Shown here piece after piece: positions 47,881 through 50,512 of a stretch of DNA of 64,000 nucleotides; position 1 is the stretch's first letter; each line of letters opens with the position of its first letter. The position numbers were made by a program, and so were the translations under genes. The DNA is from Salinilacihabitans rarus (GTDB taxonomy: Archaea > Halobacteriota > Halobacteria > Halobacteriales > Natrialbaceae), in assembly GCF_024296665.1 (NCBI RefSeq), contig NZ_CP100762.1:620001-684000 (forward strand), in the 5' to 3' direction. Under the pieces are notes generated by a model. It did not search any database, had not been told where the DNA came from, and saw only the letters and a program-made list of their open reading frames with translations.

Positions 47881-48105
47881 TCAGCCGCCGCCGAACAGCC
47901 TGAGCGCGAGGCCGACGAGGATCACGAGCGCGCCGAGCGCCGTCGCCACCGGCGGGATCGGCACGAACAACAGCCCGATACCGACGAGGATCACGACCGT
48001 GGAGGTGCGGACCATGCGAATCAGGTCGGCGGCCTCGCGGGTAGGCGTGGTGCCGGCATTGCCAGCGCCCGCGTCAGTCGCAGTCGACCGCCCGCGAGGG
48101 CTCAA
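47881..48105 (-). CDS. small membrane protein (74 aa)
   Basis: A charged head (ending TREAADLIR) precedes two adjacent hydrophobic helices ([36 protein letters not shown]). The ATG at 48105 lies inside the 3' end of the aspartoacylase-like gene, coupling the two; an internal ATG at 48015 would give only the helices. No known family. Confidence 0.6.
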
Positions 48106-48877
48106 GCACGTCGAGCTTGCGCGCGGCGTAGCCGAAGACGTCGCGGTAGCCGTACGGCGACATGAGAACGGGGTAGAAGGGGTCGTCGGCGACCCGCTCC
48201 TCGCCGTCGGCGGCCGCGAACGTGTCGCCCGCCTCGACGCGCTCGAAGTTGTCGACGAACACCTCGTAAGTGTCCGCGCTGTCCTTCCGGATGCGGTCGG
48301 TCAGCCGGTAGACCGGCAGGTCGCGGACGACGGTGTCGCCGGGGAGGACGCCGACGGCTGTCAGGAACGCCCGGGTGAGCCGGTCGGCGTTCTCGGCGGC
48401 CGCGTCGGTCCCCTGGAGGCCACACTCGACCTCGACCGTCTCGATCTCGGTGAACAGCCGCCCCTCGGCGAACGCGCCCGTCTCGACCATCGCGGTCACC
48501 GGCAATCGCGGGACCAGTTCGCGGGCCGTCTCGGTGACCCCGTTGACGATCGCGAACGGCTCGGCGTGGCTCTGGGTCGAGTGCATCGAGAACGTCAGGC
48601 AGTCGCCGAGTTCCTCGGTCAGTTCGTGGGCCAGCCGCTTCTCGTGGCTCTTCGCGTCCGGGTCGCCGGGAAAGGCGCGGTTGAGGTCCTCGTCGACGAA
48701 CCTGACCTGCCGTTCGAGGGCCGCCTCGTTGGCGACGACGAGCTTGACGGGTCGCTCGACGGCCGGCCGCTCCTCGAGCAGTCGCTCGACGGCGCGGACG
48801 CCGCAGGGCTCGTCGCCGTGAACGCCGGCGACGACCGCGACCTCCGGCGTCCCCGATCCCAGCTGTGCGACTCTCAT
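48074..48877 (-). CDS. succinylglutamate desuccinylase/aspartoacylase-family zinc hydrolase
   Basis: The 267-residue M14-like hydrolase has HGDE in [15 protein letters not shown] (zinc His and Glu), [18 protein letters not shown] (third ligand region) and VECG near the catalytic Glu. It probably removes an acyl group from an N-acyl amino acid; the exact substrate is unknown. It overlaps the downstream membrane gene. Confidence 0.88.
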
Positions 48878-48964
48878 CGACTATCCTAGGAATCGATCCC
48901 TCAAAGGCGGTTCGATCTTCGCTCCCCGCGACCGGCGAGCGACGCCCTCGCACGCCCGTCGGCG

Positions 48965-49403
48965 CTACTCCGTCGCCGGGACGACCGTCACCGACACCCG
49001 GCGTCCGCGGCCCGTCGCACTCGACCAGCAGGATCGACTGCCAGCGTCCCAGCGCGAGGTCGCCGTTCTCGACGGGGACCGTCACCGACGGCCCCAGCAG
49101 CGACGCCCGGAGGTGGGAGTCGGCGTTTTGCGGTTACACCGCAAAGCTCGTTGAGCTTCGCTCAACGCTGTTACCGTCGAGTTCGTCGTGGGCGTGGCCC
49201 TCGTCAGGGACGACGTCGGCGAGAAACGCCTCGACGTCCCCGCGGAGCCGCGGCTCGGTCTCCTGGACGAGGAGCCCGGCGGTGGTGTGGCGGACGAACG
49301 CCGTACAGAGCCCGGACGCGAGGTCGGCAGGCACCGCGTCGGCGACGCGGTCGGTCACGTCGACGGTCGTCAGCCGCGCGTCGGTCTCGACGGACAACTC
49401 CAT
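48965..49403 (-). pseudogene. yjbQ-family gene (UPF0047/thiamine phosphate synthase-like), interrupted by a 45-bp insertion and a frameshift
   Basis: The frame starts MELSVETDARLTTVDVTDRV and continues with the family motif FVRHTTAGLLVQETEP and HAHDELDGN, then reads into a foreign 45-bp segment with an in-frame TAA (stop at 49134-49136). After that segment the same frame resumes the family sequence ([35 protein letters not shown]) but then loses frame near 49000-49010; the natural end ([14 protein letters not shown] at 48965-48967) lies in another frame. So a stop and a frameshift inactivate it, unless translation restarts. Confidence 0.8.
49125..49169. mobile_element. 45-bp insertion made of two 8-bp-stem hairpins
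   Basis: Exactly 45 extra bases sit between the codons for DGN and ADSH of the yjbQ gene. They form two consecutive hairpins, each with 8-bp perfect arms and a 3-base loop: TTTGCGGT-TAC-ACCGCAAA (49127-49145) and CGTTGAGC-TTC-GCTCAACG (49149-49167). GTT occurs at 49125-49127 and again at 49170-49172, a possible 3-bp target duplication. Being 45 bases, it keeps the frame but adds a stop. It resembles a miniature inserted palindromic element; I know of no named match. Confidence 0.6.
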
Positions 49404-49432
49404 ACGCGGACTGCGACCGGACGAGGTAAAGC

Positions 49433-50512
49433 CTACGCCTCCTCTCGCTTCTCGGACCGACCGAGTTTCGAGAGCGCCCACGCCGCCCGCTCGCGGACGT
49501 CCGGGTCGGGGTCGTCGGCGGCCAGTTCTTCGAGGCGGTCGCGGGCCTCCTCGACCCGGCCGTGTCCCAGCGCGACGCAGACGTTGGCGCGGACCGGCGC
49601 GTGATCGTCGTCGAGGCGCGCTCGCAGCCGCTCGCGGGCCGGATCGACCGCGGACTCCGAGCCGGCGGCGACGCGGGCGACCGCGACCGCGGCGTTCGCC
49701 CGCGCCTTCTCGTCCGGGTCGTCGAGGGCGTCGGCGACGTCGGGGCAGGCCCCCTCGACGGCCGCCGGGTGGTGGGCGGCGACGTCCCCGAGACAGCCGA
49801 GCGCGTTGTTGCGCACGGCGGCGTCGGCGTGGTCGAGCAGCGCCGTCACCTCCGCGACGAACTCGACCGAGACCGTCGGGCTCGCCCGGGCCAGCCGACC
49901 CAGCGCGGACAGCCCCGGGGGGCCACAGACCGTCGGCGCGTCCGCGACGGCGTCGGCGAGGGCGGGTGCCGCCGGTTCGATCTCCTGGGGGTACTCGCGT
50001 GCGAGCCGCGAGAACGCGTCGACGCCCCACCGCCGCCCGTCGAGGGCCGCCTCGGCCGCGAGGGCGTCGGCGAGCGGATCGACGTGGTCGACCACCGCGT
50101 CCGGGCGCTCGCCCGCGACGGCGGCGAGACACCGGAACACGTGGGGCGTCGCGGGGTGGGGCGCGCGCTCGACGGCGAACGAGACGATGGCGTCGACCGA
50201 GGGGGCGACGTCCTCGGGCGACTCCTCGGCCAACTCCGCGAGGCAGTACGCGACGTCGCCGTGGCAGTCGACCGACGCGGAGCCGAGTAGCGCGCGTAAC
50301 TTCGGGACGGTCGGAACGCACACCGCCGGACGCTCCTCGACCGTCGCCGCGACCCGCTCGACGGCCGCCCGCCGGACTTCCGGGTCGTCGTCGTCGAGTC
50401 GCGCGAGCACCGCCGGCAGGTCGAACGAGTCGAGCGGCGCCGCTCCGGGCCCGGAGTCGGACGTGGGCTCCGATCTCCGTCGGATCGTCGAACCGTCCCC
50501 CTTCCCAACCAT
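49433..50512 (-). CDS. HEAT-repeat protein
   Basis: The 359-residue protein is a solenoid of alpha-helical HEAT/PBS-lyase-type repeats, seen as DDDDPEVRRAAVERVAATVE, LDHADAAVRNNALGCLGDVA and DDHAPVRANVCVALGHGRVE. These form protein-binding scaffolds. Partner unknown. It is followed downstream by the broken yjbQ gene on the same strand. Confidence 0.82.
   Translation of the reverse strand: MVGKGDGSTIRRRSEPTSDSGPGAAPLDSFDLPAVLARLDDDDPEVRRAAVERVAATVEERPAVCVPTVPKLRALLGSASVDCHGDVAYCLAELAEESPEDVAPSVDAIVSFAVERAPHPATPHVFRCLAAVAGERPDAVVDHVDPLADALAAEAALDGRRWGVDAFSRLAREYPQEIEPAAPALADAVADAPTVCGPPGLSALGRLARASPTVSVEFVAEVTALLDHADAAVRNNALGCLGDVAAHHPAAVEGACPDVADALDDPDEKARANAAVAVARVAAGSESAVDPARERLRARLDDDHAPVRANVCVALGHGRVEEARDRLEELAADDPDPDVRERAAWALSKLGRSEKREEA

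Follow-up and report, generated by a model that had tools for sequence, protein, structure and literature searches.

A 45-bp twin-hairpin insert in a haloarchaeal yjbQ gene probably belongs to a mobile palindromic coding family present in most haloarchaeal genomes searched

The window analysed here is a 64,000-nt stretch of the Salinilacihabitans rarus genome (contig NZ_CP100762.1, positions 620,001 to 684,000), and all coordinates are counted from its first letter. Its minus strand carries a yjbQ gene in two parts. The 5' part (49170–49403, ATG at 49403) runs up to ...HDELDGN, and the 3' part (48965–49124) starts with ADSHLRA... and ends, in another frame, at a TAG (48965–48967). Between them lies a 45-bp twin-hairpin element (49125–49169, minus strand) of the general form AG-H1-RGC-H2-RAC. 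In the minus-strand reading, GGT AAC | AGCGTTGAGCGAAGCTCAACGAGCTTTGCGGTGTAACCGCAAAAC | GCC GAC, the insert consists of AG, a 19-base hairpin, AGC, a second 19-base hairpin and AC. Hairpin 1 (H1; 49149–49167) reads CGTTGAGC-GAA-GCTCAACG and hairpin 2 (H2; 49127–49145) reads TTTGCGGT-GTA-ACCGCAAA; the AGC spacer (49146–49148), which is RGC in most family members, leaves a gap of 3 nt between them. Both stems are perfect over 8 bp and both loops have 3 nt, exactly as a first-pass annotation of this DNA had described them.

The same annotation had proposed that the insert sits between two yjbQ codons, keeps the frame and brings a TAA stop. This is confirmed on the minus strand: the gene is split between codons (N|ADSHL), with an in-frame TAA at 49134–49136. 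Intact haloarchaeal yjbQ orthologues have an empty site, with nothing between the flanking residues; nor is there an insert at this place in the two YjbQ homologues of solved structure that were inspected, out of nine matched. The stop arises from the loop of H2, where GTA has replaced the usual CAG, GAG or AAG codon with TAA, so that the window copy truncates YjbQ. Further downstream, a frameshift near 48996–49008 (coordinates of the shift assigned by eye) leaves the conserved end VSVTV out of frame with ...ECDGPRT, which indicates that the window yjbQ is a pseudogene. The window copy is therefore aberrant in two respects, its stop-bearing loop and its frameshifted host gene. The insert had been called disrupting, which is right for this copy, whereas in most others the reading frame stays open.

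Single perfect hairpins of the 8-3-8 kind carry no signal, whereas close pairs are rare by chance. Thus, the window holds seven of the former against a mean of 4.6 in 200 order-3 Markov shuffles, and a sample of the same genome holds 32 perfect hairpins with 3-nt loops where 31.5 are expected, which is no excess. The window contains one pair of such hairpins no more than 6 nt apart, and the 200 shuffles combined yielded just one. The insert folds as DNA with a z-score of −3.7, which none of 200 shuffles equalled. In the suggested search for the 45-mer, no second full copy was found in its own genome, and a BLAST search of 125 family genomes returned one copy, identical at 44 of 45 positions, in a genome of another genus (G072). 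Weaker BLAST matches covered hairpin 1 only, and in several of these a second hairpin again followed a few bases on.

Nine units, each exactly 45 bp long, aligned without gaps, and a covariance model (R1) was built from them. The window copy, itself one of the seeds of the model, scores 64.1 bits (E 7e-12); its genome contains in addition one clear older unit (G000:C1:1882419) at 41.9 bits and, at 32.3 bits, a third that is doubtful. Across the haloarchaeal order, R1 matched at E ≤ 0.05 in 347 of 392 genomes, where about 20 genomes would be expected by chance; since 16 candidates were scored per genome, copy numbers are lower bounds. At the stricter E ≤ 0.001, 36 of 246 genomes sampled from the phylum matched, 35 within the order and one among the roughly 203 outside it, and at least eight genomes within the order had no match at this threshold. 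The single outside genome (G551) has 12 hits, the best at E 5e-5, and may hold an unrelated repeat. A pattern scan of genome contigs with hairpin 2 gave 17 matches, none haloarchaeal by title, and was set aside as noise. The family consensus matched no viral contig and no phage, and Rfam has no family for window positions 48000–50500 or for six non-coding loci. Neither an earlier description of such a family in haloarchaea nor a match to its peptide letters was found in the open-licence literature; the family is apparently undescribed so far, subscription papers being a place where a description may exist.

The consensus, taken from 106 loci (77 distinct 45-mers) picked among high-scoring hits, is AG[CGAGGAGC-GAA-GCTCCTCG]GGC[AGTCGGAC-GCA-GTCCGACG]AC. 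Canonical units have 45 bp, and length variants of 48 and 51 bp were recognized by eye. The stem letters differ between copies yet remain Watson–Crick paired, with hardly an exception among the inner pairs; the outermost ones (3-21 and 25-43) are often unformed. Because the loci listed are top-scoring hits, perfect pairing is in part selected. In the nine aligned units, both partners have changed in 13 of the 16 pairs. This figure is partly by construction, as some units were chosen for their hairpins, although several had been found without use of hairpin 2. When loci from different genomes were matched by the similarity of their flanks (40 pairs, not independent and drawn from ranked hits that favour pairing), 590 stem pairs were unchanged, 34 differed in both partners and 16 in one only. 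Tandem units retrieved with a sequence-only model gave 124 Watson–Crick pairs among 126 core pairs and no G-T pair, counted in the nine of 17 tested units that had the required length. The lack of G-T steps in the stems argues for a constraint on DNA rather than RNA.

Copies lie inside housekeeping genes, including those for aconitase, valyl-tRNA synthetase, RsmB/F and a PPDK domain. The gene frame, called from third-position GC in the flanks, was clear for 42 of the 77 distinct copies, the other 35 being dropped as unclear; among the 42, 41 lie in sense orientation and phase 0. Such a unit adds 15 residues, for example SEERSSSGSRTQSGD. In agreement, all five annotated plasmid genes examined (aconitate hydratase, ppsA, cobN, and phosphatase-family and hemolysin-family genes) carry the unit in sense and phase 0, the phase being assigned by hand; these are the five annotated records opened out of nine, one of which has no annotation and one of which is not haloarchaeal. 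In addition, the Pfam matches of RsmB/F and aconitase exceed the profile length by exactly 15 residues across the unit, in a check that covered eight proteins, two of them without a match. In-frame stops are rare among the copies. By hand inspection the consensus itself is free of stops in all six frames, so the single frame reflects the mechanism or selection on the peptide, not stops.

Mobility is indicated by identical units at unrelated places. In each of three pairs of loci at unrelated sites, both members have an identical 45-mer (L137/L170, within one genome; L126/L127; and L177/L254). Listed by host gene, identical 45-mers were found in two unrelated genes of genome G191, one of them phosphomannomutase-like by eye; in two genes of G212 that are of CBS type by domain match; and in genes of G410 and G040 that are unrelated, the gene names being assigned by eye. 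Together with the 44/45 twin in G072, which is inverted relative to its yjbQ host, these identities point to a mobile palindromic coding element. The first-pass annotation had likewise seen a compact, hairpin-based mobile unit, and relatives do recur in many genes and genomes. It had also read the GTT on both sides as a possible target duplication. The GTT triplets (AAC on the gene strand) do border the insert, leaving its boundary ambiguous by 3 bases. However, the duplication does not hold up: among the 77 distinct copies the preceding triplet is GAC in 43 and AAC in 20, the last triplet of the element is GAC in 66 and AAC in 10, and there is no covariation between them (Fisher p = 0.23). 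This pattern implies that the element prefers certain sites and has an end that is nearly fixed. A MITE-like nature is not borne out either, there being no target duplication and the ends AG...AC not being, by eye, inverted repeats of each other.

What is observed, then, is that most haloarchaeal genomes searched contain units of one fixed design: two short hairpins separated by an RGC spacer, with RAC at the end. We consider it probable that the window insert belongs to a non-autonomous, mobile palindromic coding family, canonically of 45 bp, that is spread throughout the haloarchaea. New copies of the unit would be made as DNA, often behind an RAC triplet, by machinery that it presumably does not encode, and selection would retain those with a tolerable frame and peptide; we infer such selection because one frame dominates although the consensus is stop-free in six. 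Several facts count against this explanation: no fresh insertion was observed, the insert's own genome has no donor copy, no enzyme could be assigned to the movement, the two yjbQ units of G072 are antisense to their gene, and 16 stem pairs changed on one side only.

Tiny hairpin units within genes also include the small dispersed repeats of cyanobacteria and the mitochondrial byps, the latter skipped by the ribosome; these have other hosts and other sequences. The closest parallel is with the Rickettsia palindromic elements (RPEs), which, in the parts of the source drawn on here, are of about 150 bp, in ten families, within one bacterial genus (PMC10969869). Like these and the repeats of Wolbachia and Methanocaldococcus jannaschii, as far as the cited accounts go, the haloarchaeal units are palindromes lying in frame within unrelated housekeeping genes and encoding a recurrent peptide (PMC10969869, PMC2996958). 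The palindromic unit, its presence in unrelated genes of one genome (G191) and the recurrent in-frame peptide thus make the haloarchaeal family a differing form of the same kind, a likeness that does not extend to a claim of common family membership. Unlike RPEs as portrayed there, its units have 45 bp, two separate hairpins, freely re-lettered stems and one dominant frame, and they span an archaeal order. PARCELs share palindromic coding units, tandem arrays and horizontal spread with the twin-hairpin units; they differ in being protein-domain repeats, and the portion of that report used here lists none in archaea (PMC2996958). REP and REPIN sequences and the GTAG- or CGTC-tagged palindromes are also short hairpins, sometimes paired, but are extragenic and tagged according to the sections cited (PMC3116915, PMC3733652), whereas the present units are intragenic and have no constant tag beside the stem. 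By eye, no GTAG or CGTC tag is present in the window copy and none is constant in the 77 copies. The earlier suggestion of a REP-like element served by a REP-type TnpA is not supported, the copies being mainly intragenic and in sense and their number being unrelated to the presence of the Y1 family.

Among other explanations, the strongest is that units arise or spread by recombination and not transposition, riding on horizontally exchanged genes and being copied between sites through short flanking homology or template switching; we regard it as a real contender, though less likely than not. The G072 twin also lies in yjbQ, at a different site and in the opposite orientation, and a HEAT-repeat-like gene adjoins yjbQ in both genomes. 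Ten of the 12 bases adjoining the two sites agree, as do only 0.06% of background window pairs, which as an account of the coincidence is no more than suggestive; when the yjbQ flanks are aligned locally, however, they stand out only modestly (1.7% and 3.3% of background). Similar sites are occupied by units in several genera, and tandem arrays exist, as recombination might predict; against it, identical units also reside in genes that are unrelated, at flank identities of less than 0.5. The very site of the window insert is occupied elsewhere: G170 has a 45-bp unit there, with TAG at the same codon in an otherwise intact gene, G044 has a 51-bp unit and G244 a degraded insert. Four compensated pairs and three loop bases distinguish the G170 unit from that of the window, and both have the GTA loop that creates the stop. 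Upstream in the G072 yjbQ (locus L092) lies another twin-hairpin unit, 48 bp long, that contains an in-frame TGA; both units of that gene are antisense to it, contrary to the orientation rule. The YjbQ proteins of G028 and G048 looked long and on inspection had no such insert.

A less likely alternative, to which we give little weight, is that the unit is a terminal-only derivative of an IS200/IS605 element, moved in trans by a TnpA acting on single-stranded DNA hairpins. The missing target duplication and the hairpins near both ends are what it would lead one to expect. In the passages drawn on, the PATEs of Haloquadratum, SMRs and IS605-type elements likewise lack target duplications and have palindromes near their ends, the repeats being devoid of a transposase; PATEs share palindromes with IS605-type elements, and a terminal-only 52-bp form from this haloarchaeon, HqIRS46, keeps one (PMC3119063). 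The haloarchaeal units differ in their in-frame coding use, none being described for PATEs in the part of that paper cited (PMC3119063). Two element-rich genomes, G040 and G073, with 16 units each, have no Y1_Tnp match. In 38 of 40 genomes, two without a unit count being omitted, the median was seven units without Y1 (n = 11) and five with it (n = 27; p = 0.65). Across 30 Y1 loci from the 40 genomes, the sole strong R1 hit (L318) was over 1 kb distant from the gene, and the gene ends gave no clear match, only a weak hit (E 0.024) at the end of the Y1 gene match in L302. Stems also vary widely inside one genome, which would be unlike the ends served by a single TnpA. Thus, no transposase could be linked to the element, the Y1 family having been tested by presence and by gene ends, and Y1 is not needed in present genomes. 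It seems quite improbable, too, that YjbQ is still produced because the ribosome skips the insert in the manner of a byp or translates past the stop: the intact G170 gene would fit, whereas the window gene has its further frameshift, and the rarity of in-frame stops and the one frame in 41 of 42 copies are as expected of a translated peptide. An assembly or sequencing artefact, conceivable for a copy that is single in its own genome, is refuted by hundreds of relatives and by the 44/45 copy, which comes from an independent genome.

Returning to the mobile coding family, the unit would most likely be copied by host recombination or by some other enzyme. Template switching inside the hairpin may be what keeps the stems perfect: intrastrand, hairpin-templated copying would repair one arm from its partner. 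Putting these elements together, the family would be class-wide, would spread without a transposase of its own through hairpin-templated copying that rewrites stems in matched pairs, and would repeatedly add 15-residue hydrophilic loops to conserved enzymes. We hold this full version only tentatively, and rate it as doubtful. If its transposase-free reading is true, it would describe a mobile element without a transposase and a standing source of protein insertions. The paired re-lettering of the stems provides a natural test of hairpin-templated mutation.

Selfish palindromes in genes are described, in the portions of the papers cited, for some intracellular bacteria and one methanogen (PMC10969869, PMC2996958). 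The family documented here is a smaller version inside core enzymes of most haloarchaea searched, in hosts that are culturable and genetically tractable, so that insertion rate, site choice, frame preference and the effect on the protein can be tested. VEHGSTS repeats that follow the N-box of haloarchaeal proteins, which from the motif we take to be sensor kinases, resemble family members. This suggests that they, and the 15-residue loops of the type SxERSS...GSRTxSGD, are remnants of DNA elements and not features of the proteins.

Some copies are non-coding, namely those in larger repeats of genus g33 and at one conserved locus. The latter (L172, L173, L226, L248 and L255) holds a TAG-containing unit, lacks both a conserved protein frame and a match in Rfam, and is kept across four genomes, twice in G333. 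In genus g33, the larger dispersed non-coding repeats (L163–L166, L200–L204 and L205–L212) contain twin-hairpin units followed by CTCGCGCGTGC. Finally, 45-bp units form tandem arrays at L167, L168, L169 and L138, several of them in kinase-like genes with VEHGSTGSRTESDD repeats.
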